From: a virus
IMG/VR virus record: IMGVR_UViG_3300032293_002120
Location: 1 to 38,732 of that record
Reading direction: 5' to 3' (one strand)
Length of the DNA stretch: 38,732 nt
The position numbers and the translations under genes were made by a program. Shown one piece after another: positions 19,223-38,732 of this stretch; positions within the stretch are counted from its first letter, which is position 1; each line of letters starts with the position of its first letter. The notes beneath the pieces were generated by a model. The model searched no databases and was not told the DNA's origin. It saw nothing but the letters and a program-made list of their open reading frames with translations.

Positions 19223-19440
19223 ATAATTATGGCAACTTTAAATTCATCAAACATTGTAAATAATAATGTAATTCTAACTAGTGATTTACTTCAATTATAT
19301 AATGCTTTAAATTATGTAGGGGCATCAACCCAATACCTTGTTTCACTTAGTGGTTCACTTGAAGGAACTGCTTCATATGCTACAACTGCCTCTTTTGCTT
19401 TAAATGGTGGGGGTGGAGGTGGAGCCGTAACTCAAATACT
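19203..19440 (+). repeat. Direct repeat, copy 1: end of adaptor gene plus fibre 5' end
   Basis: From taataaatatag at 19203 to about 19435 the sequence matches 20903 to about 21135 with very few differences by eye, at a constant offset of 1700 bases. It includes the last codons of the upstream gene, a GATA x3 run, the short leader and about the first 205 bases of the fibre gene. Confidence 0.85.
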
Positions 19441-20902: not shown

Positions 20903-21140
20903 TAATAAATATAGATAGATAGATAATTATGGCAACTTTAAATTCATCAAACATTGTAAATAATAATGTAATTCTAACTAGTGATTTACTTCAATTATAT
21001 GATGCTTTAAATTATGTAGGGGCATCAACCCAATACCTTATTTCACTTAGTGGTTCACTTGAAGGAACTGCTTCATATGCTACAACTGCCTCTTTTGCTT
21101 TAAATGGTGGGGGTGGAGGTGGAGCCGTAACTCAAATAAT
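20903..21140 (+). repeat. Direct repeat, copy 2: remnant of adaptor gene end plus fibre 5' end
   Basis: Second copy of the 19203 segment. Here the codons for NIDR-stop lie in the gap between the two fibre genes and are no longer attached to an open frame of the adaptor gene. This shows that the duplicated unit started inside the end of the adaptor gene. Confidence 0.85.
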
Positions 21141-25255: not shown

Positions 25256-26017
25256 ATGATTGGGCTGATGTCTCTTTTAAAAGAAATCCAAGGAAAACCA
25301 AAAGCCATATTTATGGCAGGTCCTGCGGGTTCAGGTAAATCATTTATATCTCAAAAATTAGTCCCTTCTAATTTTACTACTATTAATGTAGATGACACCT
25401 ATGAGGAACTACTTAAATCCTCAGGTATTGGAATGAAATTAGCCTTAATGTCTCCGGATGAATTAAAAAGATCAGGTGAGTTAATGGGTCAAGCAAGAAG
25501 AACTACAGACACTAAACTTCAAGATGCTTCTCAAAATGCTAAAAATTTATTAATTGATAGTGTAGGGGGTTCATCTAAAATGCTACTTAGGAAAAGAGAT
25601 GAATTAGAGAATTTAGGTTACGACACGTTTATGTTAATGACTTATGTATCTCCTATAACTTCATTAGAACGTAATAAAAATAGAGACAGATCTTTATTAC
25701 CAAGTATTGTAATTAGATCCTGGCGTGATGTTAATAACAATGTTAATACATACAGACAAGCATTTAATGATGATTTTACAATAGTAAATTTAAACCTAGA
25801 AGATGCTAATTTAAATTTTGATGCAGAATATATTTTTAAAACATATATTCAACCTTTAGGACAAATAGGTAAAGAAAAAACTCCTGAAGAAAAAGAAAAA
25901 TCAAAAATAGAAGTTAATCAAATCTACGCAGACATAAAACAATTACTATCAAATCAACCCGAATTTGATACTATAGAACAAGCAAAAACAAAAATCACTA
26001 AATTTATAAACAAATGA
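25256..26017 (+). CDS. P-loop kinase, zeta-toxin-like
   Basis: 253 residues. Walker A is AGPAGSGKS (21-29). The following INVDDTYEELL has an acidic pair as in zeta-type kinases, and a basic stretch ERNKNRDRSLLPSIVIRSWR probably contacts phosphate. The fold class is the AAA/P-loop kinases of small substrates (zeta toxin, nucleoside or polynucleotide kinases); the substrate cannot be read. The N-terminus MIGLMSLLKEIQGKP is a short hydrophobic helix ending LKE10, similar to T4 capsid-targeting sequences; an alternative start at 25268 (MSLLKE) keeps it. The last 40 residues are Lys/Glu-rich. It overlaps the next start by ATGA. Packaging into the head is an inference. Confidence 0.75.
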   Translation: MIGLMSLLKEIQGKPKAIFMAGPAGSGKSFISQKLVPSNFTTINVDDTYEELLKSSGIGMKLALMSPDELKRSGELMGQARRTTDTKLQDASQNAKNLLIDSVGGSSKMLLRKRDELENLGYDTFMLMTYVSPITSLERNKNRDRSLLPSIVIRSWRDVNNNVNTYRQAFNDDFTIVNLNLEDANLNFDAEYIFKTYIQPLGQIGKEKTPEEKEKSKIEVNQIYADIKQLLSNQPEFDTIEQAKTKITKFINK

Positions 26018-26385
26018 AATTATTAGACTTATTAAACGAAGTAGAACAAAAAGAAAAACCAACAGTAAAGTATGATGCAAAAGAAGAACCAACATCTGTG
26101 ATAGATGAAGTTGGTAAGTTTTTTGTTGTTAAAAAACCAAGTAAAGATTCTAAAAAAGAAGGTATGGTATATGAAGCTACTGTATTTGATGAAATTAAAA
26201 GGGATGAAACTAAAGGTGTTTACAAAAACAAATCTGAAGCAAATCGCCACGCTGCCGAAGCCTTAAAAGAATATGACATGCAACTTAAAGAAATGGAAGA
26301 TGCTATGGAAGCTTATCGCAGTGCTAAAAAAGACATAGAAGAAAAGAAAAATTCAGCAAAAGAAAAAATTCAAAAGCTTAAATAA
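26014..26385 (+). CDS. Small coiled-coil protein with capsid-targeting-like N-terminus
   Basis: 123 residues, very rich in Lys and Glu. It begins MKLLDLLNEVEQKEKP, where LNE9 followed by V is a possible prohead-protease site. A short beta module (KFFVVKKPSKDSKKEGMVYE; ATVFDEIKRDETKGVYKN) follows, and residues 75-123 form a long charged helix ending KEKIQKLK. No enzyme motif. Size, charge and N-terminus resemble T4 internal head proteins (IPI-IPIII), which carry a cleavable targeting sequence; this is an analogy of layout, not a family assignment. It starts at ATGA with the kinase and is two bases from the next gene. Confidence 0.6.
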   Translation: MKLLDLLNEVEQKEKPTVKYDAKEEPTSVIDEVGKFFVVKKPSKDSKKEGMVYEATVFDEIKRDETKGVYKNKSEANRHAAEALKEYDMQLKEMEDAMEAYRSAKKDIEEKKNSAKEKIQKLK

Positions 26386-26387
26386 TA

Positions 26388-28652
26388 ATGAATTCATTAA
26401 CAAAAGTCTTATTAGAAGATCTTTTGGACGCGGATGATAAAAAAGTAACCGCTATATATGGTGGAGGATTTAAACCTCCTACTAAAGGTCACTTTGATGT
26501 TGTTGCTAAAGCATCCGAACAAAACCCAGAAATTGATGACATTTTAATTTATGTTGGCGGTGGTGAACGTGATGGAATTTCTCAAGGTGAATCTATTCAA
26601 ATTTGGGAATTATATAAAAAATATCTTCCAATTAAAACTGTAATAGAACCAGTAAATGCACCTATAGGTAGTATTTTACGTTATGCTAAAGAACATCCTG
26701 AAGAAAAAATACTTTGGATAATAGGTGCTCGTGAAAATAATCCTGAAGATTTTGCTGACATTGCTTCTAGAACTAGAACATTAGAAAAATATCCAAACCT
26801 ACAATTACGTGTTATCCAAACATCAGGTGGTGTTAGTGGAACAGCAGCTCGTAATGCAGTTAAAAACAATAATAAAGACCAATTTTTTTATTTAATCCCA
26901 GACATTCCCGAAAAGGAACAAGTATGGGATATTGTATCTCCTGTTGTTAAAGAAGAAAAAATAACCGAAGTAGGCGAAGCAAATCTATCTCCCTATAAGT
27001 GGGAAGAAGTTGATAAAAACGGTTGGGTTACTTTTATTGAATTTACAACAGAAAGTGAAACTAAATATAGAGTAAATTTAACAACTGTAGAAATTGTAGA
27101 TCCTGAAGGTGGAAATATGAATCTTGAAGCTATAGATATTGAATTTTCCGCAAAACCTAAAGGAGCTGAAGGTTCTTCATCTAAAATAGTAGTTAATAAA
27201 GGTGAAATATATAGAGTAATGTCTACTCTAACAGCTATAATTAAACATTATGTAAAGGAAATTGAAGCTAAAGCTATAATATATTCCCCATCTAAAAAAT
27301 CAGATGAGGAAGATTTTGGTACTCAAAGAGACAATCTATATAAAGCATTTATTTCTAAAGCCATACCAGGGGCAAAATTTACAAATTCTAAAAATAATAT
27401 AATAGCAATTTTACCTAATACAGTTAATGAAATAGTAACAGACACAGAAGTTATTTGTGATAATTGTGATTGGAAATGGCCTATAGCAGATGGTGGAGAT
27501 GATTTATACATTTGTCATAAATGTGGACACGATAATAATCCTGAATTACAAGAAGAAATAAATCCCTCTACTAAATTAAAATCTAATATTATTAATGAAG
27601 GTCGTTACGATAGTATTTCAAGACAATTAGCTAGTTATACTCTTAAAGGTTGGAAAGATGATTTTGAACACAATGAACCTACCGGAAGAGTAGAATTTGC
27701 AGTTGGCCCTGATGGGGATTTAGAATACGAGGACTTAAAGTTTTCATATAAAGGTGTAGCCGTATTTGCAGGTATTCAAACATATTCATATAATGGATCT
27801 GCTAGGTTAACCTCAGGGGAAATAAAAATAACCTATTCTATTCCAAAAAGTATGCTCCCCCAAGGTTGGGAAAAAATTTATATGGATTTAATTTCTGTTA
27901 TTCGCCATGAAATTGAACATCTAACCCAAGGTGGTATCAATGTAAAACCAGGTAAAGAAATTTTAGATCTCCCTCTTAGACGTTTAGTTATTAAATATCC
28001 TGATACTTTAAGATATATACTTTTACCCTCAGAAAAAGATGCAAATGTTCAAGGTTTATATTTAAAAGCTAAAAAATCAAGACGTCCTTATGCTGAAGTA
28101 GTAGATGAGTATATTAGAGATTTACTTAAAATTACTAATAAAAATGATGTTGATATTCTTAAAGGAATGTATGATAAAAGAGCAAAGGAATTAAATTTAC
28201 CTGCCATTTTAGAAAATGATTTCTTTGGTTTAAATAAATTATCAAGACAATTTATTCAAGAAGCTTTAATAGAAACTTGGAATCCTAAGGAATCTTTCGT
28301 ATCTTTATCCAAATATATGATAGACAATGGAATGAATATCAAACCATTACCTAAAATTAAGATAATTTCAAATGATGAAGAAAATGCTTCTAATCTTTTA
28401 GGTAAAACTGCTTATTATAATCCAAATGATAAATCTATTACTTTATATACTAAAGATAGACACCCAAAAGATATATGTCGTTCATTTACCCATGAAATGG
28501 TACACCACGAACAAAATTTAGAGGGTAGATTAAATAATATCAACACAACAAATACCAATGAAGACGGAGCATTACCTGAAATTGAAAAAGAAGCTTACGA
28601 AAAAGGAAATATGATGTTACGTAATTGGGAGGATAGTATAAAAAATGTATAG
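26388..28652 (+). CDS. Fusion: nucleotidyltransferase, zinc ribbon and two HExxH metallopeptidase-like domains
   Basis: 754 residues, modular. The leader MNSLTKVLLE10 is capsid-targeting-like. Residues 18-185 form a cytidylyltransferase/NMN-adenylyltransferase-like domain with GGGFKPPTKGH (25-35) and SGTAARNAV (150-158). Residues 200-345 are an unknown alpha/beta domain. Residues 355-385 are a zinc ribbon with CDNC (357-360) and CHKCG (376-380). Residues 405-600 hold a metallopeptidase-like domain with RHEIEHLTQ (506-514). Residues 626-754 hold a second HExxH, THEMVHHEQ (701-709). Possible cleavage sites ITE194, VGE197-A, INE404-G and IQE625-A fall between domains. A polyprotein split into separate enzymes after packaging is my inference; a bifunctional fusion is the alternative. 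Confidence 0.75.
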   Translation: MNSLTKVLLEDLLDADDKKVTAIYGGGFKPPTKGHFDVVAKASEQNPEIDDILIYVGGGERDGISQGESIQIWELYKKYLPIKTVIEPVNAPIGSILRYAKEHPEEKILWIIGARENNPEDFADIASRTRTLEKYPNLQLRVIQTSGGVSGTAARNAVKNNNKDQFFYLIPDIPEKEQVWDIVSPVVKEEKITEVGEANLSPYKWEEVDKNGWVTFIEFTTESETKYRVNLTTVEIVDPEGGNMNLEAIDIEFSAKPKGAEGSSSKIVVNKGEIYRVMSTLTAIIKHYVKEIEAKAIIYSPSKKSDEEDFGTQRDNLYKAFISKAIPGAKFTNSKNNIIAILPNTVNEIVTDTEVICDNCDWKWPIADGGDDLYICHKCGHDNNPELQEEINPSTKLKSNIINEGRYDSISRQLASYTLKGWKDDFEHNEPTGRVEFAVGPDGDLEYEDLKFSYKGVAVFAGIQTYSYNGSARLTSGEIKITYSIPKSMLPQGWEKIYMDLISVIRHEIEHLTQGGINVKPGKEILDLPLRRLVIKYPDTLRYILLPSEKDANVQGLYLKAKKSRRPYAEVVDEYIRDLLKITNKNDVDILKGMYDKRAKELNLPAILENDFFGLNKLSRQFIQEALIETWNPKESFVSLSKYMIDNGMNIKPLPKIKIISNDEENASNLLGKTAYYNPNDKSITLYTKDRHPKDICRSFTHEMVHHEQNLEGRLNNINTTNTNEDGALPEIEKEAYEKGNMMLRNWEDSIKNV

Positions 28653-29184
28653 GTTAACAGATTTATATAAACAAATTAAAGAGGAATCAACAGAACCTTC
28701 TCAACCGCAATATAAAATTTATTGTGATATGGATGGTGTTTTAACTGATTTTGATGAAAACTTTAAATCTTTAAACCTAAAAAATTTATCCCCAGATCAA
28801 TATAAAAGTAAATATGGTATAGAAAAATTTTGGGATTTTATAGACATTGATAATAAACTTAAGTTTTGGACTGAAATGAAATGGATGCCTGATGGAAAAG
28901 AATTATGGGATGCTATTAAAGATAAAAATCCAACTATATTATCGGCTCCCTCAAAAAGTCCCTCTTCTCGTTTAGGAAAAAGATTATGGATTGGTAATAA
29001 TATTCCCGGAACACCTTTAATTTTAGCATCAGCTGAATCAAAAAAGAATTATGCTAGAAAAGATGCAATACTTATAGACGATAGAATTTCAAATATTAAT
29101 GATTGGAACAATGCCGGGGGTATTGGAATTCTTCATACTTCAACATCATCAACATTAACTAAATTAAGCAAATATGGCCTTTAG
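28645..29184 (+). CDS. HAD-superfamily phosphatase (5'-nucleotidase-like)
   Basis: 179 residues. HAD motif I is YCDMDGVLTDFDENF (26-40) with Asp28 and Asp30 as nucleophile and acid/base. Motif II is probably ILSAPSKSPSSR (near 98-109), and motif IV is AILIDDRISNINDWNNAGG (about 142-160). This order and size resemble 5'(3')-deoxyribonucleotidases of the NT5C type. The catalytic domain starts only at residue 23; residues 1-22 (MYRLTDLYKQIKEESTEPSQ) are an extra helix ending IKE13, again like a capsid-targeting sequence. It overlaps the previous gene by 8 bases and the next by 11. A nucleotidase carried in the virion or a nucleotide-pool enzyme in the infected cell are both possible. Confidence 0.8.
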   Translation: MYRLTDLYKQIKEESTEPSQPQYKIYCDMDGVLTDFDENFKSLNLKNLSPDQYKSKYGIEKFWDFIDIDNKLKFWTEMKWMPDGKELWDAIKDKNPTILSAPSKSPSSRLGKRLWIGNNIPGTPLILASAESKKNYARKDAILIDDRISNINDWNNAGGIGILHTSTSSTLTKLSKYGL

Positions 29185-29485
29185 AAGAGTAATAATTAGT
29201 GGAGAAAAAGTAAATGATACTAAAGCAGACTTAGAAGGCTTTTTTACAACAAGAGTATTCCAAACTAACTACCCAGGATTAAAACATAAAATAATTGTTT
29301 CCCCTTTTAAAGAAGACACACTTATAATAGATGTGAATGGGGATGGAGCAGATACAGTATCTAAAAAAATTAAAGATATTGGTATAAAATATAAAATGAA
29401 AGTTTTAATTAAAGTAGAAAAACCAATGTCAGCAGTTAATGAAGCAAAATTAACTAACATTATTAAAGATATATTAAAAAAATGA
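29174..29485 (+). CDS. Small alpha/beta protein with NEA motif
   Basis: 103 residues. The body (RRVIISGEKV, HKIIVSPFKEDTLIIDVNGD, MKVLIKVEKP) looks like a small alpha/beta fold of the ferredoxin type. The end is SAVNEAKLTNIIKDILKK, in which VNE90 followed by Ala91 is the motif repeated in the long proteins downstream, and the final 12 residues form a basic amphipathic helix. Function is unknown. It overlaps the HAD gene by 11 bases and the zinc-ribbon gene by ATGA, so it is embedded in a coupled series. Confidence 0.6.
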   Translation: MAFRRVIISGEKVNDTKADLEGFFTTRVFQTNYPGLKHKIIVSPFKEDTLIIDVNGDGADTVSKKIKDIGIKYKMKVLIKVEKPMSAVNEAKLTNIIKDILKK

Positions 29486-30054
29486 GTAAAGATTCAGTTT
29501 TAAAAAAAGAGTTTAAACAACGTGATGTACAACGTCTTCGTAACCTTGTTCAAGGTAAATATGGCGAAAGTACTACTATGGGAACCGGTTATACAAAAAC
29601 TAAAGAATTTCATAGTGAAGGAGATAAATGGGAAGAAGATGGAAGAACTTGGGTTATTAAAAATGGCTTAAAACAAAATATTACAAAATTAGATAAGGCA
29701 AAAGAAGGTATCGTTTTACCTTTATTTTGCCCTTCTTGTTCTCGTACTATGAAACCCCATTTAGATAAAAGATGGTTTGTAATGTACGGACATTGCTTTA
29801 ATTGTCAAGTAGATTTTGAATCAAATTTAAGAAAACAAGGTAAATTACAAGAATTTGAAGATCAAGTAGTTAATTCAAATATTGATGGTGTAACTAAAGA
29901 TCTTGAAGTTTGGTTTAATGAATTAATTAATGAAAAACAAGAATTTATCACTGAATCCGGGGATATTGAAAATTGGGAAGGTTCTGGAAAACAACATTTA
30001 TTAAAATATAAAAAGGAAGCTTTAGAATTTTTACAAAAACAAAAAAGAAAATAA
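29482..30054 (+). CDS. Zinc-ribbon phage protein
   Basis: 190 residues. The N-terminal 75 residues are conserved-looking and basic (KQRDVQRLRNLVQGKYGEST; EEDGRTWVIKNGLKQNITKL). A zinc site follows: Cys83-x2-Cys86 in LFCPSCSRTMKP and Cys105-x2-Cys108 in GHCFNCQVDFE. The C-terminus is helical with VWFNELINEKQEFITESGD and a Lys-rich end. I recall similar proteins in marine T4-like phages without an assigned function. Binding to nucleic acid or to a polymerase partner is plausible from the zinc ribbon. It has no capsid-targeting-like N-terminus, unlike its neighbours. Confidence 0.65.
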   Translation: MSKDSVLKKEFKQRDVQRLRNLVQGKYGESTTMGTGYTKTKEFHSEGDKWEEDGRTWVIKNGLKQNITKLDKAKEGIVLPLFCPSCSRTMKPHLDKRWFVMYGHCFNCQVDFESNLRKQGKLQEFEDQVVNSNIDGVTKDLEVWFNELINEKQEFITESGDIENWEGSGKQHLLKYKKEALEFLQKQKRK

Positions 30055-30060
30055 TTAAAA

Positions 30061-30666
30061 ATGACACCAACAATCATAGCAGCGTTTATCTCAGGAGTAT
30101 TAGGACCAATACTTTTATTACTAGTTAAGTATTACTATGAAAAAAGTAAAACAAAACCAGATATGGTAACTGAAACATTAGAAGTTAGTGAACGAGTTAT
30201 GCATAAGTTAGACCAAATCAAAGAAGATTTTAATGCAGACCGTGTTTGGGTAACTCAATTTCATAATGGAGGTCATTTTTATCCAACCGGAAAATCAATT
30301 GCAAAATTTAGTGTAGTATACGAAACTGTAAACATTGGAGTAGGATCTATACAATCTAACTTCCAAAATATCCCAGTAAGTCTTTTTAGTAAATCAACAA
30401 ACGAATTATTGGATAACGATATAATTTCAATTGTAGATTATAAAGATCCTACAATAGAGACTTATGGCCTTAAATATGTTGCCGAAGAATCTAATTGCAA
30501 ATCTGGATACTTATTTGCAATCAAAACTATTGAGGATAAATTTATTGGGTGTTTAGGAATTGATTACACAAAACGCAAAACTAAACTTGATTTAGAATCA
30601 ATAACGCAATTATCCATCGATGCTGCTATAATAGGAGGAGTCCTTAATAATCATTTACAAAAGTAA
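30061..30666 (+). CDS. Membrane-anchored GAF-like protein
   Basis: 201 residues. One N-terminal membrane segment (IIAAFISGVLGPILLLLVKY, 5-24) is followed by a charged linker helix (MVTETLEVSERVMHKLDQIK). The remaining 140 residues resemble a GAF/PAS-type sensor fold: DRVWVTQFHNGGHFYPTG (about 60-77), a long middle helix, SGYLFAIKTIEDKFIGCLGI (about 148-167), and a final helix. The W-V-x-Q-F-H-N-G-G pattern is one I associate with phage and prophage proteins of unknown role. The cytoplasmic domain could sense a small ligand. No output domain is attached, so it would act by contact with another protein at the membrane. Starts 6 bases after the zinc-ribbon gene. Confidence 0.65.
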   Translation: MTPTIIAAFISGVLGPILLLLVKYYYEKSKTKPDMVTETLEVSERVMHKLDQIKEDFNADRVWVTQFHNGGHFYPTGKSIAKFSVVYETVNIGVGSIQSNFQNIPVSLFSKSTNELLDNDIISIVDYKDPTIETYGLKYVAEESNCKSGYLFAIKTIEDKFIGCLGIDYTKRKTKLDLESITQLSIDAAIIGGVLNNHLQK

Positions 30667-30690
30667 TAATAAATTAAATATAATTTAAAA

Positions 30691-32688
30691 ATGAAAGACC
30701 TACAAAAAATTAAAGAATTCTTTTCTAAACCTATGAACGAAGGTAATAAAGAATATTTTAAACCATTAATCCGTAAGAATAAATCTAATCCTAACTTTTT
30801 ATATGTTGATATTTTATATCCTGTAGACACAGGTTTTACAACCGCTTTAGGTTCTAAAACTATGTTGGGTCAAGATAAAGAAGAAGGTGCTGCTAAAGCA
30901 TTAGCAATGGGTAATGCTGTTGCTAAAAAATTAAAAGCAAAATACGATCTTGAAGATATTGATGTAAGTGATTTAGAAAATGGTAAAGTAGAAGTATTTG
31001 CTGTATCTGATGATTTTATTAAGATAGATTCTCCTTCATTAGATGAAGCTAAAATTTCACATATTGTTGGAGGTATTCCTTATAAACGTACTCGTAAACC
31101 AAAGGAAGATAAGATTGAAATTATACAAAAATTAGATGAGCCTACTAAAATTAAATTAATAAAAAAATTTAAAGAAAAAAATTGGGAAGTTAAACCAAAT
31201 GAAAAAGGAGGTCTTACTGCTACAAAAAAATTAATGTCAATACCTGAAGAAATGAATGTAAATGAAGCTGAAGGTAAATATAAAATAGCATATAACGGTA
31301 AAGGTTTTTATGGTATTGCAAAAGGTGATAAAATTGAAGGTGAATATTCAAAAGAAGAAGCACAGAAAAAAGCCGATAAACTAAATAAAACTATGATTAG
31401 TACAAATCCATTCATTAGTGACTTTAAAGTAGGTGATATTATTTCATTTAAAGATGGTGAAGATTGGAAAGTAATGAAGGTAAAAGACAATGTTGGTAAA
31501 CTTGTTATTAAACCTTACAACGAAAAAGCTAAAAAAGGAAACGTTAGTTTAGAAATTGATGTTGATTTAGATTACCTTAAAAAGAATTTAAATGAAGCTA
31601 AATCAAACCCTGAAGTAGATAAACTTTTAAAAGTTATGAATGATAAAAAAGCAGGACCAGAATATAAAAAAGCATTAATGGATTTAATAGCAATGGCTGA
31701 GAAAATATCAGGTAAAACTATTCAAACTAAAAAAGAAGCATTACTTGCTTTAGATTATGTTGAACCATCAATAAGTGAAACAAATGGTTTTAAATCTGGT
31801 AAAGAATTTATTAATATAAAATTACAAAAATATCCAAAAGCTATAGCTAAAGTTAACCAATTAATCAATATGGTTGGTGAGTCTAATTTTACAATGGAAA
31901 TAGCTGAGTGGATTTTTGATTTCTTTAATAACGCTTCATATGAAAGTCCAATGAATGAAGCTAAAGAAGAGGATGCTGTTGATACAATTACAATGGATAT
32001 TCCATTATTCCTTCGTATGTTAGAATATTCAAGAGAAGATGCTTCTCAAGACATGGATTTACATGATGTTACTGAAAAATCAAATTTATTAGGTAAAGAA
32101 AGAGGTATTTTATCTATGGAAGACTACGAAGAGATTGTAGGGGTTGCTGAAGATACTCCTGAAAAAGAATTAACCGAAGCAAATGTTCCTTCAAACATTA
32201 GAGATTTTGCTAAAAGAAAAGGTGTTTCTTCTTTAGTAAACAAAGTAGCAGGTTGGGCTGAAAAAGTAGGTGCTCGTATTGCTGGTGGAACTGCTGTTGG
32301 AATGAATTATGCTACCCTAGTATTAGATTTAGATTACAAACAACAAGGTGAAATTCGTATTAACACAGATAATGAAACAATCAAATTATATGATGAACCC
32401 GTTGATAATTTTAATGCTTTCCAACGTGTATATGTTGATTATAAAGATTTAGATGAAAATGTTGCTCCTAATCATAATGGAAAATCATCTCCTTATGGAT
32501 CAGGATATAAACCATTAGAGGAAAAAATTGCTAAAGCATTAGATAAAATTAATGAAGAATTATGTCCTGCAGGTAAAGCATATAGAAAACGAAGAATAGC
32601 AGCAGGTGAAAAATCCTCAGCCTATCTTTCAGGTCGCGCCGTTAAAGTATGTAAAGGCCAAATGTCAGGCAAAAAAAAGAAAAAATAA
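30691..32688 (+). CDS. Multi-module protein with repeated xNE/xTE-A sites; candidate capsid polyprotein
   Basis: 665 residues in at least six segments. The start MKDLQKIKEFFSKPMNEG is helical with MNE17-G. Then LDE119-A, VNE192-A, LNE302-A, MNE423-A and LTE496-A recur, and INE622-E precedes the tail, giving segments of about 102, 73, 110, 121, 73 and 126 residues. Segments have their own character: YKIAYNGKGFYGIAKGDKIE (197-216) is a small beta module; PEYKKALMDLIAMAEKISGK is helical; 500-600 is alpha/beta. The C-terminus CPAGKAYRKRRIAAGEKSSA and AVKVCKGQ then Lys5 is a basic Cys-containing tail like those on other large-phage proteins and suits DNA binding. The sites fit the T4 gp21 rule (L/I)xE before A/G. 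Function of the modules is unknown. Confidence 0.65.
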   Translation: MKDLQKIKEFFSKPMNEGNKEYFKPLIRKNKSNPNFLYVDILYPVDTGFTTALGSKTMLGQDKEEGAAKALAMGNAVAKKLKAKYDLEDIDVSDLENGKVEVFAVSDDFIKIDSPSLDEAKISHIVGGIPYKRTRKPKEDKIEIIQKLDEPTKIKLIKKFKEKNWEVKPNEKGGLTATKKLMSIPEEMNVNEAEGKYKIAYNGKGFYGIAKGDKIEGEYSKEEAQKKADKLNKTMISTNPFISDFKVGDIISFKDGEDWKVMKVKDNVGKLVIKPYNEKAKKGNVSLEIDVDLDYLKKNLNEAKSNPEVDKLLKVMNDKKAGPEYKKALMDLIAMAEKISGKTIQTKKEALLALDYVEPSISETNGFKSGKEFINIKLQKYPKAIAKVNQLINMVGESNFTMEIAEWIFDFFNNASYESPMNEAKEEDAVDTITMDIPLFLRMLEYSREDASQDMDLHDVTEKSNLLGKERGILSMEDYEEIVGVAEDTPEKELTEANVPSNIRDFAKRKGVSSLVNKVAGWAEKVGARIAGGTAVGMNYATLVLDLDYKQQGEIRINTDNETIKLYDEPVDNFNAFQRVYVDYKDLDENVAPNHNGKSSPYGSGYKPLEEKIAKALDKINEELCPAGKAYRKRRIAAGEKSSAYLSGRAVKVCKGQMSGKKKKK

Positions 32689-32978
32689 TGGATGATAATC
32701 GTTTACAAAAATTAGTATCTGAATCATTACGTGACTGGTTTAAAAAAGAAGACTGGGTGCGTATTGATACTCAAGGTAATATTACTGGCCCTTGTGGAAC
32801 GATGAAAAAAGGGGATGCTACAACTCGTTGCTTACCTCGTAAAAAAGCTCAATCATTATCTAAAGCTGAACGTGCTAAAACTTCACGTAAAAAAGCATCG
32901 GCTTCTCGTAAAGGAAAACAATTTGTTTCTAATACAAAAAAAGCAAAATACAAAAAAGGTACATATAATAAAAATTAA
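32688..32978 (+). CDS. Small basic Cys-motif protein, DNA-binding-like
   Basis: 96 residues, pI clearly high. A short helical start (DNRLQKLVSESLRDWF, with VSE12) leads to WVRIDTQGNITGPCGTMKKG (23-42) and TTRCLPRKKAQSLSKAERAK (about 45-64), then a Lys/Ser/Arg tail (ASASRKGKQFVSNTKKAKYK). The GPCGT and RCLPR motifs with a basic tail occur in many large-phage and algal-virus proteins without a known function (from memory). By composition it should bind DNA, and with the targeting-like start I infer a packaged DNA-condensing peptide. It starts in the stop codon of the modular protein (TAATG), and that protein ends in a comparable Cys/Lys tail. Confidence 0.65.
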   Translation: MDDNRLQKLVSESLRDWFKKEDWVRIDTQGNITGPCGTMKKGDATTRCLPRKKAQSLSKAERAKTSRKKASASRKGKQFVSNTKKAKYKKGTYNKN

Positions 32979-32979
32979 T

Positions 32980-32988
32980 ATATTTATA
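32980..32988 (+). promoter_or_regulatory. ATATTTATA intergenic motif, copy 6
   Basis: The 9-mer lies 1 base after the stop codon at 32978 and ends 16 bases before the ATG at 33005. A second partial copy (atatattta) follows at 32992-33000. Confidence 0.4.
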
Positions 32989-33004
32989 ATCATATATTTA
33001 AAAA

Positions 33005-34897
33005 ATGACAAAATTTAACCTTAAAAAAGCTATATTAGAAAATAAAGCTACATTCTTTAGTTCATTAACCGAGGGTCAATTCTCTTGGATTACTCAAGAT
33101 ACAAACCAACAAATTGGATCGGAAAATGAAAATACTCTTCCTTTTGTTTATATGTTTGATAACAAAGGTATGAAATGGTTAGAAAAAAATTATGAAGGAT
33201 ATGGTGTATTCGGTAATAAAGATTACTACGAATTATTAGACCAAATGAATGGTGGAACAGGTGATAGAAGTCGAGGCATTAATTTAGCTTTTGATAAAGA
33301 ATCCACAGAGTCAGGTGAAGTATTATATCCGGCTTTAGTAGTTAATCCAAATTTTAATTGGAAATCTCATGATTTTACTGAAGAACCTAAAAATGATCCT
33401 AATCAATCTTGGTATCAAGAACCTGAAGAAGAGGATTATAATCTTGAAGATGATGATGATGAAGATGATGAAGATGATGATGATGAATATTTGCAAGAAG
33501 CTTCTGCTGATTCTACACCTTATGGAAACTATATTAATAAAGCACGAGCAAAATCACATTTAACTAAAAAAGATGGAGATGTATATGGTATTGATGAATC
33601 TGGAAAAGGACATAAAATAACGGATGCTACTGATTTAGATAAGTATACTAAATTTACAATTAAGTCTAAAAAATTAAATGAAGGAAAAATGTATTACCAT
33701 GTATTAGAAGATATGGGTTATGGTGAAATAGGACATGAAGGTGTTTATGACACTGAAGAAGAAGCTCAAGATAGAGCGAATAATTTATCTAGAACCTACC
33801 CCGATTCATCCTTTTATGTTGAACCTTCAACTAGCGAAAAGGAGCCATATAATGTTACTTCCTCAGATTATGATCCTAATCTTGATATAGATGAAGGTAA
33901 AAAAGAAACACCTATTGACGAAGAAATATTTGGATTTCCAAATGTAGATATAAATTTTCCAACTCTAAAAACAAGATATATTGCTAAAAAATTTGCAGAA
34001 TATATGTCTAATAAAGAAGGACAAAGATTTACAGTAACTTTAAATTCACCGGATGGTCCTTCATTTGATTTAGATTTAGATGGTGAAGAGTATGATGGTG
34101 GTAGTTATCTTATTGCAAAAAATGGAGATATTATAAACGTCGCTCTCCGTGAAAGACCAGTATACGGTAACATTTCAATGTTGGATGAAACCGAAAAACC
34201 AAAAACAAAAATGAAAAAATCAGAATTAAAAGAAAAAATCAAAGAAATGGTTCTATCAGAAATGGAATCTAACAACATGGAGGATGCTCCAGAAGATGAA
34301 GTTGATTTCTTAGCTGAAGTTGCTGCTATTTTAGCAGAAGCAGATAAAGACGAAGAAACAGATACTGAAACAACAGATGCTGAAACAGTAGACGCAGAAG
34401 TTGAAACTCCTGAAGGAACTGAAGATGTTGAAGTAACAGATACAACAACAACTGACCAAGTTGATCCTAACGTAAAAGCAGTACAAGATGCTTTAACACA
34501 AGCTCAAGCAGCTGCTCAAACATTAGGAGATGCTAAATTAACAGATCAAATTGGTAATACAATTACATTCTTTACACGTACACACGTAGTTGATAAAGGT
34601 GCTGTAGCTGAAAATGTAGAAGAAGATCTTCAAAATAAAGATATAGAAAGTGCAATTACGGGTAAAAAATTAGATTTAGCTAAATTAAAAACTGCTACTG
34701 AAAAAGCAATGGGGGGAGATTCAACTGAATTAACTTTATTTTTAGCAGGAGTTTTTGAAAATAAAGAATATTACAATGATGCAGAATCTGATGATGCTGC
34801 TCATATCAATGCATTAGAAAAAGACATGAAAGATGATAAAGATTCATCTATGAAAATTAAAGAAGTAGTTTTCCCAATGTGGCAACGAATTAAATAA
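33005..34897 (+). CDS. Acidic modular protein; candidate fusion with internal start
   Basis: 630 residues. The start MTKFNLKKAILENKATFFSS ends in LTE23-G. Residues 25-125 form one domain (PFVYMFDNKGMKWLEKNYEG). An acidic run of Asp/Glu (149-161, coded by GAT/GAA triplets at 33449-33487) is followed by LQE165-A, LNE226-G and IDE297-G. Residues 227-275 are a small module (YYHVLEDMGYGEIGHEGVYD). A helix MKKSELKEKIKEMVLSEMES begins at Met403 (34211), with LAE438 and LAE445-A. The C-terminal 140 residues are Ala/Asp-rich then ordered (LTDQIGNTITFFTRTHVVDK). The Met403 helix copies the N-terminus of the gene at 37091, so two genes probably fused. No catalytic motif seen. Confidence 0.6.
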   Translation: MTKFNLKKAILENKATFFSSLTEGQFSWITQDTNQQIGSENENTLPFVYMFDNKGMKWLEKNYEGYGVFGNKDYYELLDQMNGGTGDRSRGINLAFDKESTESGEVLYPALVVNPNFNWKSHDFTEEPKNDPNQSWYQEPEEEDYNLEDDDDEDDEDDDDEYLQEASADSTPYGNYINKARAKSHLTKKDGDVYGIDESGKGHKITDATDLDKYTKFTIKSKKLNEGKMYYHVLEDMGYGEIGHEGVYDTEEEAQDRANNLSRTYPDSSFYVEPSTSEKEPYNVTSSDYDPNLDIDEGKKETPIDEEIFGFPNVDINFPTLKTRYIAKKFAEYMSNKEGQRFTVTLNSPDGPSFDLDLDGEEYDGGSYLIAKNGDIINVALRERPVYGNISMLDETEKPKTKMKKSELKEKIKEMVLSEMESNNMEDAPEDEVDFLAEVAAILAEADKDEETDTETTDAETVDAEVETPEGTEDVEVTDTTTTDQVDPNVKAVQDALTQAQAAAQTLGDAKLTDQIGNTITFFTRTHVVDKGAVAENVEEDLQNKDIESAITGKKLDLAKLKTATEKAMGGDSTELTLFLAGVFENKEYYNDAESDDAAHINALEKDMKDDKDSSMKIKEVVFPMWQRIK

Positions 34898-34918
34898 AAA
34901 TAAATAAATAATAAAAAT

Positions 34919-35089
34919 ATGAACACAATAGAAATTTTAGAAAAAATTGAAGCACTTTACGAATCATTTAAAGCAGAACATGCTGGAAAATCAAAAGCTG
35001 CTCACGGCCGCGCTCGTAAAGCATTAGGTGAAATCAAAAAATTGATTACCGAATATAGAAAAGCGTCAATTAATGAAGATAAAAAATAA
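34919..35089 (+). CDS. Hc1/histone-H1-like DNA-binding peptide, 56 residues
   Basis: A short gene with ATG at 34919 and TAA at 35087-35089. The N-terminal 20 residues are an amphipathic helix (MNTIEILEKIEALYESFKAE). HAGKSKAAHGRARKALGEIK (21-40) and KLITEYRKAS (41-50) follow. The GKSKAAHGRARKAL...LI.EYRKAS pattern matches what I remember of the small Hc1-like histone H1 homologs of Bacteroidota, which have GNKAAGxRARKALxEL. It should bind and compact DNA. It lies 21 bases after the acidic protein and overlaps the next gene by 17 bases. A host-derived nucleoid protein used by a phage, possibly packaged, is my inference. Codon and base use do not differ visibly from neighbours. Confidence 0.78.
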   Translation: MNTIEILEKIEALYESFKAEHAGKSKAAHGRARKALGEIKKLITEYRKASINEDKK

Positions 35090-37082
35090 TATAACTGAAA
35101 AAAAACTTACTAAATCTGAATTAGAAGTAAGAGAAAAAGTAATTAAGGATTTAAAAAAAAATAAGTCTTCACTTGTTAAACGCTATGGCAAAGATGCCGA
35201 AGCTGTTATGTATGGACGAGCAACTAATATAGCTAAAAAAATGGCAGAATCAGAAAATAAAAACCGCATTAAAGAACTTGTAAAAAAATCTTTAATGAAA
35301 GAAGATGAAGTAACTCAAGATAAAGATCATAAAATTACCCAAGAGGGTAATCTTTGGGTTCTTGTCTATAAAAATAAAAATAAGACATTTAAACATCATT
35401 TTGGTTCAAAAAAAGAAGCTGAAGAATTTTGGAATAATAACAAAAATTCAGATAATTCTATGAAATTTGAAGAAGGTAAAAAAGAAGATGTTACGGGAGA
35501 TGGTAAAATTGATTCTAAAGATTACTTAGCTAAACGTGATATTGCTATTCAAAAAGCAAAAAGTAAAGTTAAAGAAGATATTGACTTAGGTCACGAAGAT
35601 AACGAACCACATATGATTAAAGGTGATTTATATCGTATTGGAAAATATGCTATGGAATTATATGCTATGGCTGAAGAATTAGAAGAAACAGGACAAGAAA
35701 TTGATTTCCCATCTTGGTGGCAAGCAATGATTACAGATGCATCAACTAAAATGGTTAAAGCAAAACATTATCTTGATTTTGAATTAAAAGAACCAGCGAT
35801 TGATGCTATTGTAGATAAATTAACAGGTGAAAAACCCCATATGGATGAACCTGATTATTCTGATGTAACTGAAGGTTTTTTAGATAGAATGAAAGCTAGT
35901 GTAAAAGGAGCTGTTGCTGGTGTTGGTCAAGCTGCTAAAAATATAGGATCTGCTGTTAAAGGAGATTCATCTCAGTTTAAGAGTGTATCTAATACAGCTA
36001 ATATGGCTAAATTAGGTCAAAAAGTAAAAACTTTTGGAAAAGAAATTGATGATGTTATTAATGATATTAATAAATTATTTCCTAAGGAAAAACTTGATAA
36101 AGACCCAGAATTAAAGGGAAAAATTGAAAAATATCTAGCAACATTAAATCAAACCAAAACTCTAAATACAGCTATTTCCTCCGTAGATGAAAATATGTTT
36201 ACTGGAAGAAATGATATGAATATGGGTTCAAGTTATTCTGATTATTCTTCGGATAGTGATATAAGTATTGATATTTTAGCATCTAAAATTGCTAAAGCTC
36301 TTAAAAATCCTGAAAATCAAAATGAGGATGATCAAAATAATATTAAGCAAGCTAGAAAAGCTCTAAATCTAGGTGACATAGAAATAGCTGGAAAAATAAT
36401 TAAACCATATATAACTGAAAAAAGAGCTAAACAATTAAAAGAGTATACTCAAAATGATTTTCAAGCTACTGTACCAGGAAGTGGTCGTCCTAAGATCGAT
36501 CCCGCTTTTTTTGCTAAACTTATGCCTAAGTCTGCTAAGACGAGTAAAGAGGCTGAGGCTAGAATAAAGATGTATAATGGCTCTACAATGTTTGTTCATT
36601 CGCAGTACTTTGTAGTTACACCAAATGGTAATATGCCTAATAAGCCTAAATATGAAATTCACCAATCACAGTACTACAATAACGAGTATAATGCACCTGC
36701 AAATTTAAAGGGTCAAGATGTTAATGTTACCTTTTTAACTATATTTGATGTTACAAATGGAGAAGTTGAACTTGGCGTTTGCTATGTAGATACTAAGGTG
36801 TTTTTAGATGAGTATAAAGTGGTATTTGAATTATTAAAAAGGGTAAGTGAAGATATTAGACAAAACTCCCCAGGAGAACTTGATGGGGAATATGAAGGAA
36901 AACCACAAAAAATACAAGGTGCTGATATATACGATACCTTAAAAGATATCCTTGATATTTCTAATTCAGAAAATGACTTTATAAGAAAAATAACTGATTC
37001 ACTTACAGATGAAACTAGTTCTTTATCTAAAAGTACTGAAGAAAAATTAAGAAATTGGTACAAAAAGAACGTTACTAATTAA
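35073..37082 (+). CDS. Modular virion-associated-like protein with EF-hand loop
   Basis: 669 residues. The start MKIKNNITEKKLTKSELEVR has ITE9. Residues 12-60 contain KSSLVKRYGKDAEAVMYGRA (31-50), a helical module I recall from other marine phage proteins. Residues 87-125 are a small beta module (NLWVLVYKNKNKTFKHHFGS). DVTGDGKIDSKD (139-150) has the calcium ligand spacing of an EF-hand/dockerin loop. Residues 172-250 hold a helical domain with GHEDNEPHMIKGDLYRIGKY and DFPSWWQAMIT. VTE267-G precedes a glycine-rich amphipathic helix (MKASVKGAVAGVGQAAKNIG). The last 200 residues are an alpha/beta domain (MFVHSQYFVVTPNGNMPNKP). The order of short independent modules suits the polyprotein model. 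Starts inside the Hc1-like gene. Confidence 0.6.
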   Translation: MKIKNNITEKKLTKSELEVREKVIKDLKKNKSSLVKRYGKDAEAVMYGRATNIAKKMAESENKNRIKELVKKSLMKEDEVTQDKDHKITQEGNLWVLVYKNKNKTFKHHFGSKKEAEEFWNNNKNSDNSMKFEEGKKEDVTGDGKIDSKDYLAKRDIAIQKAKSKVKEDIDLGHEDNEPHMIKGDLYRIGKYAMELYAMAEELEETGQEIDFPSWWQAMITDASTKMVKAKHYLDFELKEPAIDAIVDKLTGEKPHMDEPDYSDVTEGFLDRMKASVKGAVAGVGQAAKNIGSAVKGDSSQFKSVSNTANMAKLGQKVKTFGKEIDDVINDINKLFPKEKLDKDPELKGKIEKYLATLNQTKTLNTAISSVDENMFTGRNDMNMGSSYSDYSSDSDISIDILASKIAKALKNPENQNEDDQNNIKQARKALNLGDIEIAGKIIKPYITEKRAKQLKEYTQNDFQATVPGSGRPKIDPAFFAKLMPKSAKTSKEAEARIKMYNGSTMFVHSQYFVVTPNGNMPNKPKYEIHQSQYYNNEYNAPANLKGQDVNVTFLTIFDVTNGEVELGVCYVDTKVFLDEYKVVFELLKRVSEDIRQNSPGELDGEYEGKPQKIQGADIYDTLKDILDISNSENDFIRKITDSLTDETSSLSKSTEEKLRNWYKKNVTN

Positions 37083-37090
37083 AAAACAAA

Positions 37091-37576
37091 ATGAAAAAAA
37101 GTGAATTAAGAGATAAAATTAAATCTCTTGTCCAACAAACATACAAATCTAAATCTATTGATTCAGATAATGGAGGAGAGATTACTCTTGATGCTGATAA
37201 ATTCCCAGTGTTAGCTAAATTTCCAAAATTAAAAGACATAATTGTTGATTTATTAACTACTCAATATGAGGTCTTTATGAAAGCTATAGAATGGGTTGCA
37301 CCACGTCCAACAACATTTAGAATTGTGCTAGGCAATGATGAAGATTTTTTGTTAATTTACACAGAAAGAAGTTGGATTGCCCAGATTGAAGGTAAAAAAT
37401 ATTATTTATTAAATTTAGGAGAAGAAGAGCAAGCCGCCGAATCTATTTCAAGATTACTTTCATATGGAGCTCCGGCACCTGCGGAAGGTGAAACTCCAGC
37501 TGAAGAAACAGCTGAAGCTCCTACAGAAACTCCAGAAGAAGCTCCTGCTGAAGAAGAAGAAACAACAACAACATAA
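37091..37576 (+). CDS. Small alpha/beta protein with acidic Pro/Ala/Glu tail
   Basis: 161 residues. Helix MKKSELRDKIKSLVQQTYKS opens it and is nearly the same as the internal helix of the acidic protein at 34211. A compact domain follows (FPKLKDIIVDLLTTQYEVFM; TFRIVLGNDEDFLLIYTERS; WIAQIEGKKYYLLNLGEEEQ), ending about residue 124. The tail (APAPAEGETPAEETAEAP and so on to the end) is disordered, acidic and low-complexity, built from GAA/GCT/CCA triplets. No family recognised. The tail composition resembles scaffold or internal head proteins more than enzymes. The gene lies 8 bases after the modular protein and 1 base before the nuclease-like gene. Confidence 0.6.
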   Translation: MKKSELRDKIKSLVQQTYKSKSIDSDNGGEITLDADKFPVLAKFPKLKDIIVDLLTTQYEVFMKAIEWVAPRPTTFRIVLGNDEDFLLIYTERSWIAQIEGKKYYLLNLGEEEQAAESISRLLSYGAPAPAEGETPAEETAEAPTETPEEAPAEEEETTTT

Positions 37577-37577
37577 T

Positions 37578-38696
37578 ATGGACATATTAGATAAGTTTTT
37601 TAAAAAATATTCATATAAATTTGATAAAGGATATCCTGACATGAATAATGAGCAGGATGTTTTTTTGTTAGAATCACTTTTAAGTAAAGTAATAAATGAG
37701 AATTTTAAGTTACTTAAAGAAGAAGATACAGAAAATGGAATTGATATTTTAAAAAAAGAATTAAATTTAACAGATGAAGATTTTATAAAATTATCATCCG
37801 TTAGATATAAATTATTAGTTCCAAGATCAGAAAGATATAATTACATAGAAAAAATTACTAAACTCCCCGGATTTAGTTATGATGTTAATGTTCCCGGTTC
37901 CTCTATTGGTGGGATTAAATATAACAACACTACTTTTCTTTTAAAACCTTCAGGAGCTCAAGGTAGAGCATCCTCAGGTACTGGAAATGAAGATATCATA
38001 GTAAATGAAATTAACAAATATATTGAAGAAGGTGCTATAAATATAATATTTAATGCTCCTAATAAAAATTTAACAATTAATAATGTTAAAGAAGTAATCC
38101 CTGTAGGTTATGATGTAGCTGGAGGTAAAAAAGCAGATATTATTATTAAAGCTAATAAAGATTATCCAATTTCCATTAAAAAAGATAATGCTGGATTTTG
38201 GGAAAGCTCCGATACAAGATATAAAAGTTTAGTGTTAACTTTATCAAAGAAAATAGCAAATGGTGATTTTGCACCTGAATTAGTATTTCAACCTTTTACC
38301 GATAAATTAGGCAACCAAAAAGAAGGTATTAATACAATGTATAATGAAACAACTAAAAATAAAGTATCAGGAATAATTGTTACAGATCTTCCTACAAATG
38401 ATGAAAATGAAATCATTTTTGGCTCGGATAAAGCTACAATAATATATAGAAGTTACTCTCCATCTGATTTTGAGTTAAAAGAAAATACATTATATATAAA
38501 AGTTTCTAAAATTTTAGAAAATATATCCGATGTTGAAGAATTTGATCTTGAACCTGTACTTAATATTAGACATGATTCTACTAGAGCATCTACAGGAGGA
38601 TTAAGAGCAACTGTCCAACCAAAAAATAAACTGTACAGTGATGATCAACTTACAGGAAATAAAATTGAATTATCATATAATGATATTATATCATAA
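37578..38696 (+). CDS. PD-(D/E)XK-like nuclease candidate with phage-type leader
   Basis: 372 residues from the ATG at 37578; an open frame extends upstream to 37464 but only inside the previous gene's low-complexity tail, so the 37578 start is preferred. Residues 1-50 are a leader with KYSYKFDKGYPDMNNEQDVF (10-29), a pattern I recall at the start of several marine phage proteins, and INE41-N and LKE48-E follow. The core has GRASSGTGNEDIIVNEINKY (129-148) and then GYDVAGGKKADIIIKANKDY (177-196) and PISIKKDNAGFWESSDTRYK (197-216). Glu144, Asp187 and Lys201/202 would form a PD-(D/E)XK active site, as in restriction-type nucleases. Catalysis is unproven; the function of related phage proteins is unknown to me. 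Confidence 0.6.
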   Translation: MDILDKFFKKYSYKFDKGYPDMNNEQDVFLLESLLSKVINENFKLLKEEDTENGIDILKKELNLTDEDFIKLSSVRYKLLVPRSERYNYIEKITKLPGFSYDVNVPGSSIGGIKYNNTTFLLKPSGAQGRASSGTGNEDIIVNEINKYIEEGAINIIFNAPNKNLTINNVKEVIPVGYDVAGGKKADIIIKANKDYPISIKKDNAGFWESSDTRYKSLVLTLSKKIANGDFAPELVFQPFTDKLGNQKEGINTMYNETTKNKVSGIIVTDLPTNDENEIIFGSDKATIIYRSYSPSDFELKENTLYIKVSKILENISDVEEFDLEPVLNIRHDSTRASTGGLRATVQPKNKLYSDDQLTGNKIELSYNDIIS

Positions 38697-38704
38697 TATT
38701 TATA
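38696..38704 (+). promoter_or_regulatory. ATATTTATA intergenic motif, copy 7
   Basis: The 9-mer begins in the last base of the previous stop codon and ends 3 bases before the ATG at 38708, as in copy 1 at 1340. Confidence 0.35.
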
Positions 38705-38707
38705 ACC

Positions 38708-38732
38708 ATGGATTTAAAAAAACTCATTAAAG
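38708..38732 (+). CDS. 5' end of a gene cut by the window edge
   Basis: ATG at 38708 followed by eight complete codons reading MDLKKLIK before the sequence ends. The context (ATATTTATA, three bases, ATGG) equals that of the gene at 1352. The start is again a short Leu/Lys helix, as in the other accessory-block proteins. Too short to assign. Confidence 0.5.

Follow-up and report, generated by a model that had tools for sequence, protein, structure and literature searches.

Does a T4-like phage pack a whole set of enzymes into its head for delivery into the host, and if so, how are these proteins marked? This question is raised by a stretch of 38,732 nucleotides from a virus (the window), in which a gene block reaching from position 25,256 to the end encodes proteins with similar short N-terminal motifs. 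In T4, the capsid-targeting sequence (CTS) comprises 10 residues and cutting follows an L/I-x-E rule (PMC9026906). The original prediction was that at least eight proteins of the block carry such a leader and travel in the head. The block adjoins head genes in a T4-like virus, whose host is probably a member of the Bacteroidota, and it is collinear with the head region of a complete relative, Flavobacterium phage immuto. The window is a fragment that stops short of the genes for protease, scaffold and capsid protein; these were read in relatives.

Results

All eight predicted motifs were found in the sequence at the expected residues: MIGLMSLLKE10 (gene at 25256), MKLLDLLNE9 (26014), MNSLTKVLLE10 (26388), MYRLTDLYKQIKE13 (28645), IKE9 and MNE17 (30691), LVSE12 (32688), ILE12 and SLTE23 (33005) and NITE9 (35073). 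The leader sits directly before the protein body and ends in (L/I/V/M)xE, with mostly L or I at P3 and V or M in some. It had also been proposed that the known fold of the kinase and HAD proteins starts only after the leader, and the Pfam match positions agree: in the kinase, Zeta_toxin matches from residue 12 and residue 18 corresponds to position 2 of the AAA_33 profile, while residue 25 of the HAD protein, which also matches phrog_2643, corresponds to position 4 of NT5C. Five block genes (29174, 29482, 30061, 37091 and 37578) lack a leader. Sequence searches of solved structures with the kinase and HAD proteins gave no match, nor did a PADLOC scan of eight block proteins. The features are listed in Table 1.

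Table 1. Leaders, polyproteins and further proteins of the block, with positions in the window. Joints are predicted and numbered by residue.
Feature	Position	Strand	Details and basis
Leader MIGLMSLLKE of zeta-toxin-like P-loop kinase (gene 25256-26017)	25256..25285	+	Conservation and Pfam fold start
Leader MKLLDLLNE of 123-aa protein of unknown function (gene 26014-26385)	26014..26040	+	Sequence and homologues
Polyprotein 1	26388..28652	+	Edges from relatives, AF2 linkers, fold search, Pfam
Leader MYRLTDLYKQIKE of HAD-fold 5'-nucleotidase-like protein (gene 28645-29184)	28645..28683	+	Homologue leaders
Polyprotein 2	30691..32688	+	Leader MKDLQKIKEFFSKPMNE17; joints E119, E363, E423, E487, E496, E611, E622
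Leader MDDNRLQKLVSE of small basic protein with WF..WV module (gene 32688-32978)	32688..32723	+	
Polyprotein 3	33005..34897	+	Leader FNLKKAILENKATFFSSLTE23; joints E165, E226, E395, E585
Polyprotein 4	35073..37082	+	Leader MKIKNNITE9; joints near E168 and E259/E267
MKKSEL-type protein	37091..37576	+	Counterpart fused to C-terminus of polyprotein immuto_192; stand-alone in L024
Protein with KGYPDMNN N-terminal segment, then LKEE	37578..38696	+	Counterpart immuto_193, a short way upstream of immuto terminase gene

Inside the window alone the excess of leaders is modest and weak over chance. The motif [LIVM]xE occurs at residues 8-30 in 9 of the 14 block proteins, compared with 5.2±1.7 in shuffles; elsewhere in the window, 7 of 25 proteins have it (P=0.03). 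In immuto, 16 of 23 head-block proteins, which include known head proteins such as the MCP, scaffold and protease, have it at residues 8-18, as opposed to 42 of 209 others (P=2e-6); when A/G/S/N is required after the motif, the counts are 12/23 and 18/209 (P=1e-6). As far as can be read from the sequences, the strongest evidence for the leader is its conservation among highly diverged homologues in relatives, a comparison that had been named as a check of the original prediction and came out in its favour. Every one of the 32 distinct kinase homologues has [LIVM]xE at residues 9-12, and the Walker A motif is kept. Among about 38 distinct HAD homologues, found by their DxDG motif, all but one carry [LIVM]xE ahead of the DxDG fold, and several of these leaders are unrelated in sequence, yet keep the motif. 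In the sole exception (L152) only a fragment, MKEEE, is left, owing to a fusion of its ORF with the gene upstream. Homologues of the protein encoded at 26014 begin with MKKLLDLLREM (L100) or MKLSAFKKIIKEA (L010).

Leaders are also shared between unrelated proteins. Five leader types were found on 103 proteins with 17 different bodies (type A), 20 with 8 (B), 63 with 20 (C), 125 with 24 (D) and 60 with 14 (E); the [LIVM]xE counts in types C and G, and partly in A and D, are circular, as the search pattern contains the motif, and we do not use them as evidence. One type is a copy of the conserved tail with which the scaffold protein ends: the leader of type B, R(M)QKLAGIITE, corresponds to R(W/M)Q(K/I/R/T)LAGI at the scaffold C-terminus, and the strict motif was counted 49 times at C-termini, 21 times at N-termini and 3 times elsewhere. 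A module of the WF..WV kind follows LxE directly in immuto_187 (LLQE|DETLHKWF) and in phage P-SSM4 (LVKE|GNLHKWF). Single-leader enzymes of relatives include a CCA-adding enzyme. Microcystis phage Mel-JY01 has the scaffold tail (ERMKKLAGIVK) and the capsid junction in common with these phages; few leaders are present in the genes read.

The original prediction is supported in part: its leaders stand, but it missed a larger feature, namely that sites of the leader type also link interchangeable modules within the long proteins. Judged by their sequences, the proteins encoded at 26388, 30691, 33005 and 35073 look like modular polyproteins. Where modules are gained, lost or swapped in relatives, 361 of 446 edges (223 clean indels, drawn from related contigs and not fully independent) lie within 4 residues of (L/I/V/M)xE, compared with 87 expected and a maximum of 115 in 1000 permutations. 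All four families show the excess clearly, and it was replicated in immuto-like phages (94/134 against 27.5 expected). Control motifs show little or no excess at module edges (observed versus expected: [LIVM]xD 36 vs 81; [STNQKRDEG]xE 200 vs 164; [FYW]xE 22 vs 27). An unbiased logo of the edges gives L/V/I/M at P3 (64% of module edges) and an enrichment of A/G at P1'. Codon use at the sites is ordinary and equals the background, and 215 different 12-mers occur among 311 sites; the ordinary codon use indicates that selection acts on the protein. However, the motif is short and common, and many copies inside folded domains show no exchange, so that sequence alone cannot fix which sites are cut. 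The P1' bias over all motifs of the window proteins is uninformative because most of these motifs lie inside folds and are not sites. Modules are exchanged at a high rate between near-identical phages.

Polyprotein 1 is composed of the leader (LLE10), a nucleotidyltransferase of NadD/CoaD type according to fold search, a DUF6934-like module, a zinc ribbon and two zincin-like modules with HEIEH and HEMVH, the last of which has an invariant HEMxHH. Pfam gave weak matches to DUF6934 and M91. Joints are predicted after E189, E194/E197, E348, E389/E404, E609 and E629, positions at which the ends of BLAST matches to relatives accumulate (15-28 contigs at the main sites). The AF2 model has linkers with pLDDT<50 at 187-199, 345-354, 385-413 and 608-620; 7 of 9 supported sites fall into predicted linkers, but none of the 6 unsupported sites, which lie in folded parts. 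Polyprotein 2 has 665 aa in the window and 818 and 1024 aa in near-identical relatives (alignment with L005/L006), and 106 of 116 indel edges in its family lie at sites (26 expected). Its AF2 model is of low confidence overall (mean pLDDT 52), which makes for a weak comparison of sites in low-confidence stretches (8/8 supported against 6/10 weakly supported; P=0.07). In polyprotein 3, 47 of 66 edges lie at sites (14.6 expected), SLTE/SLNE|GQFSW is conserved, and a leader-like segment, KKSELKEKIKEM, is found internally at about residues 404-415. For polyprotein 4 the count is 38 of 52 (11.3 expected), site support being thin, with few contigs each, and in relatives the leader is replaced by MNKKNLQQAIREFLSKDKSSLVTE while the body is kept.

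The original prediction had named the prohead protease gene and its cut sites in the major capsid protein as a check. A gp21-like prohead protease is present in 8 of 12 related contigs, about 50% identical to that of immuto (immuto_201), and the gp23-like capsid protein of relatives has a conserved N-terminal pro-segment ending in (L/I)V(T/S/A/M)E. As read from sequence, both fit the (L/I)xE rule. The family of immuto protein 200, adjoining the protease, displays the same cassette turnover as the long proteins.

Discussion

We regard it as quite probable that the block serves a T4-like phage as a capsid-cargo module, made up of leaders, protease-cut joints and polyproteins. What we observed is that leaders are conserved and shared, where the joints lie, and which protease and capsid junction relatives have; from this we infer packaging, cutting and ejection for the window phage. 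The short leaders would act as capsid-targeting sequences that dock the proteins into the prohead core, where the gp21-like protease would cut after (L/I/V/M)xE and thereby free the P-loop kinase, the HAD phosphatase, the nucleotidyltransferase and others. In the long proteins, one leader may carry several small domains through packaging, and cutting of the joints inside the head would release the modules as separate proteins. The released cargo is probably ejected together with the DNA. Independent support comes from the leader type that equals the scaffold tail, from the leaders shared by unrelated bodies, and from a class of leader-bearing cytidylyltransferases detected in cyanophage virions.

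Alternatively, the long proteins might be auxiliary prohead core (scaffold) proteins, which the protease degrades to small peptides; these would exit the head and clear space for the DNA, as happens with T4 gp22, and the modules would be mere filler. In immuto, the counterparts are found a short way upstream of the genes for terminase, portal, protease and scaffold; several modules are small and charged, without a family match, and the protein 200 family next to the protease turns over in the same manner. However, catalytic motifs are kept (Walker A in the kinase, the invariant HEMxHH, and DxDG in the HAD protein, itself the search key), the sites lie between folds and not inside them, and single-leader enzymes such as the CCA-adding enzyme need not be scaffold. 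We consider this reading unlikely.

The block also resembles polyvalent proteins (Iyer et al. 2017), which are multidomain, peptidase-containing, encoded near head genes and thought to be packaged and injected. Polyprotein 1, too, joins domains of different biochemistry (NadD/CoaD fold, zinc ribbon, two HExxH modules) in a single chain encoded near head genes; strong Pfam matches to polyvalent signature domains were absent from the proteins scanned, with only a weak Peptidase_M91. A difference is that release there has been proposed to occur by embedded peptidases (PMC5512222), for the block by the head protease. That its modules are freed in the host by their own zincins, and that the joints are not prohead protease sites, is very unlikely, since the proteins encoded at 30691, 33005 and 35073 have no HExxH in sequence, yet share the same joints, and the joint rule is that of the capsid pro-segment junction and of T4 gp21.

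Two further readings carry almost no weight: DNA-level recombination hot spots, with the motif as a by-product, would suit the rapid module exchange but not the background codon use, the diversity of 12-mers or an amino-acid rule restricted to an aliphatic residue at P3 with Glu at P1, and ordinary amphipathic helices with a chance motif would suit the window-alone excess of about 2.3 standard deviations but not the conservation in kinase and HAD homologues or leaders common to unrelated bodies.

The capsid-cargo reading suggests a variation on the T4 internal-protein system. Like the block proteins, T4 IPI, IPII and IPIII, which have a CTS cut by gp21, carry an N-terminal leader of about 10 residues ending in (L/I)xE and are encoded near head genes, and the gp21-like protease and gp23-like capsid protein of relatives add to the likeness. 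In T4, however, one leader serves one protein; the block differs in its leaders on many unrelated enzymes, in V and M at P3, and in the use of the same sites as module joints within polyproteins. A cytidylyltransferase, T4-GC190, was found in purified virions of cyanophage S-SM1 by mass spectrometry (PMC3037559). In this cluster, the leader MKKFSAFLTE|A precedes a cytidylyltransferase-like domain and LRE|A follows later in the chain; the counterparts of the S-SM1 protein in five other cyanophages begin with MK(K/S)FSAFL(T/K/S)E|A. The cyanophage enzyme has only the superfamily signature in common with the window nucleotidyltransferase, and a joint test in cyanophages yielded two usable indels, a set too small to be informative. 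In phiKZ and SPN3US, the prohead protease cleaves many head proteins behind a Glu, and propeptides contain several such sites. The phiKZ motif is S/A-x-E, from which the P3 residues of the block joints depart; the reported cuts remove propeptides, and in the passages considered exchangeable cargo modules are not described.

We lean towards viewing the phage head as a polyprotein-processing compartment: cassettes that each end in a protease site would be packaged together behind one leader, cut into effectors and delivered, with some leaders imitating the scaffold tail and cassettes moving between polyproteins and stand-alone leader genes. Our literature searches turned up no virion proteome for immuto or any T4-like phage of Bacteroidota, nor an open publication in which prohead protease sites act as joints of cargo modules. 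The claim is directly testable on an existing isolate, Flavobacterium phage immuto. If true, an (L/I/V/M)xE leader or joint, a scaffold-tail-like peptide and a place beside the head genes would together form a sequence rule for recognizing what T4-like phages bring into the host cell; at present, most such cargo is labelled hypothetical in annotations. A further consequence would be that a bacterial virus uses its maturation protease to process polyprotein cargo, and that cargo sets could readily be exchanged as phage and host compete.

Results

The window, a complete 38.7-kb fragment record of a viral collection, carries, in this order, gp25 and gp6 baseplate genes, an extended tail/fibre region, genes for a GIY-YIG-like protein, a primase and an exonuclease, and the block at 25256-38732. 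Flavobacterium phage immuto has the same gene order, with a baseplate wedge that is 45% identical over its full length. Since the counterpart block of immuto leads directly into the genes for terminase, portal, gp21-like protease, scaffold and gp23-like capsid protein, the block is the beginning of the head region.

The original prediction had described N-terminal leaders ending in (L/I/V/M)xE in at least eight block proteins, and the motifs of all eight that it listed are found at the residues claimed. Within the window alone, the motif occurs in 9/14 block proteins vs 5.2±1.7 in shuffles, which is unconvincing by itself; in the complete immuto genome it lies at residues 8-18 in 16/23 head-block proteins vs 42/209 others (P=2e-6). 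Alignment of homologue N-termini, proposed as a check, revealed that the leader is kept. In the kinase, [LIVM]xE stands at residues 9-12, directly ahead of the P-loop strand, in 32/32 distinct homologues, and in the HAD protein the motif precedes DxDG in all but one of about 38, although the leaders themselves are very unlike (MYKLTDLYKQLKE↓E, MIKLKKIYNAVIE↓G, MRKFAQINPMIFE↓A, MKSIVDLLE↓A, MLKLSKLIKE↓Y; arrows mark putative cuts). The sole exception, on the related contig L152, retains only MKEEE as a result of the ORF's fusion with the gene upstream. Outside this group, a methylophage encodes a HAD protein that lacks such a leader and begins close to the fold; kinase homologues of the same methylophage and of pelagiphage HTVC008M start with MKTFAELQE↓G and MIPFILKE↓G, respectively. 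In front of the 35073 body, relatives have a clearly different leader, which ends LVTE↓E, and unrelated bodies carry common short leaders (five types, each on 8 to 24 body clusters).

A gp21-like protease is encoded in 8/12 related contigs and a gp23-like capsid protein in eight of the twelve. The N-terminus of the latter is conserved through LLENQAKQLV(T/M)E and variable beyond, and the junction in immuto-like phages is ENQAKQ(I/L)V(S/A)E; the protease and the capsid junction of relatives would fit the proposed cut rule. Both phage groups have a scaffold whose C-terminal end is R(W/M)Q(K/I/R/T)LAGI. The same peptide recurs N-terminally in unrelated proteins, within leaders of the RMQKLAGIITE type (strict motif: 49 at the C-terminus, 21 at the N-terminus, 3 elsewhere). 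We infer that cargo may imitate the scaffold tail.

Two relatives with proteins almost identical to those of the window, variable parts aside, encode the same long proteins, and the lengths differ between window and relatives (30691: 665, 818 and 1024 aa; 26388: 754 and 873; 35073: 669, 793 and 800). The differences are mostly whole modules with edges PINE↓A, LNE↓A, MNE↓A, LDE↓A, VTE↓G and LEE↓G. From 63 contigs related to the window we collected 223 clean insertions, each of 20 residues or more and flanked by well-matched sequence. Of their 446 edges, 361 are no more than 4 residues away from an [LIVM]xE site; placing edges at random in these proteins gives an expected 87 and never more than 115 in 1000 permutations. 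Both edges are this close in 151/223 indels vs 11 expected; allowing for ambiguous gap placement, the counts become 368 and 157. These counts stem from related contigs and not from independent events; nevertheless, the effect is repeated in separate families (26388, 126/146 vs 22 expected; 30691, 106/116 vs 26; 33005, 47/66 vs 15; 35073, 38/52 vs 11) and in a separate indel set, drawn from immuto-like phages and including a few loci near the window (94/134 vs 27.5). Control motifs gave 36 vs 81 expected edges for [LIVM]xD, 102 vs 97 for [LIVM]xK, 22 vs 27 for [FYW]xE and 200 vs 164 for [STNQKRDEG]xE. When the Glu nearest to each edge was taken with P3 unconstrained, L/V/I/M made up 64% of P3, and P1' was enriched in A (2.6-fold) and G (1.9-fold). 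The sites have ordinary codon use, and their DNA varies from one to another.

In the AF2 model of 26388, supported joints fall in linkers 187-199, 345-354, 385-413 and 608-620, and motifs that lack such support sit in helices or strands (in linkers, 7/9 vs 0/6, P=0.006); because confidence is also lowered by gappy alignment columns, we take this as supporting evidence only. The first domain has a NadD/CoaD nucleotidyltransferase fold, and HEMxHH is invariant in the last.

Modules move between internal or fused and stand-alone formats. The GTGKKPEKSGRRLYTDEDPKDTVSIKFKT module is internal in the L005 relative of 26388; in L138 it forms a separate gene with a leader of its own, MIKLVDILKE. A DUF6934 match lies near residues 200-330 in the window protein and at 758-846 in L115.

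Features of the window and of related sequences (L numbers; L003 is phage immuto)
Coordinates	Feature	Observation
Window 19229-20890, 20929-22692	Tandem paralogues, probably fibre-type	N-termini nearly identical (MATLNSSNIVNNNVILTSDLLQLY), remainders diverged
Window 25256	Kinase gene	
Window 26388, 30691, 33005, 35073	Putative modular polyproteins	
Window 28645	HAD gene	
Window 30061-30666	Protein within cargo block	N-terminal membrane segment, possibly GAF-like remainder, without leader
Window 37091	Stand-alone gene	Counterpart fused in immuto_192
L003:18607-37015	7-deazaguanine gene set, including DpdA-like transglycosylase	Suggests modified DNA
L003:25061-25456	immuto gene 41, far from head genes	Scaffold-tail-like leader MKKQILSEQFKRMQFLAGIITESE
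L007:5845-7197, L009:6524-7876	Dinucleotide-binding oxidoreductase-like gene (MAKKIVIVGSGVAGVNAATKLVDNG)	Downstream of cargo genes in relatives
L010:14200-14775	Protein with leader MIKLSDILKE	Kinase-like N-terminal motif GSGQRSSVY and IHGEQFGY...KLLDF; no match in Pfam
L068:13123-14850	Intein-like insertion after GSGK motif	GSGK↓AQPLTSRV...NCILTHN↓T (arrows, insertion edges); edges not at (L/I/V/M)xE sites
L196:13324-14772	CCA-adding enzyme (poly A polymerase family)	HD domain

Discussion

Internal proteins of T4 bear a 10-residue capsid-targeting sequence that gp21 cuts after L/I-x-E, and Asp at position 10 stops cutting and leaves targeting unaffected (PMC9026906). The leaders described here are very likely capsid-targeting sequences, and there is good reason to believe that the polyprotein joints are cut by the prohead protease. 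Polyvalent proteins, multidomain phage proteins, are thought to be packaged and then released by embedded peptidases (PMC5512222). In openly accessible journal papers, we found no account of exchangeable cargo modules joined at prohead protease sites. In cyanophage S-SM1, the T4-GC190 cytidylyltransferase has been detected in purified virions (PMC3037559); T4-GC190 counterparts in five other cyanophages start MK(K/S)FSAFL(T/K/S)E↓A.

Ejection of the cargo into the host seems probable. A role in repairing nucleotides, NAD or tRNA against host defence would suit the predicted kinase, phosphatase and nucleotidyltransferase, as well as the CCA-adding enzyme of a relative. The CCA-adding enzyme on L196 carries MIKLKNLLQE↓G as its leader, so capsid cargo may include a tRNA repair enzyme. 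Leaders may also reveal cargo elsewhere in the genome, as immuto gene 41 suggests.
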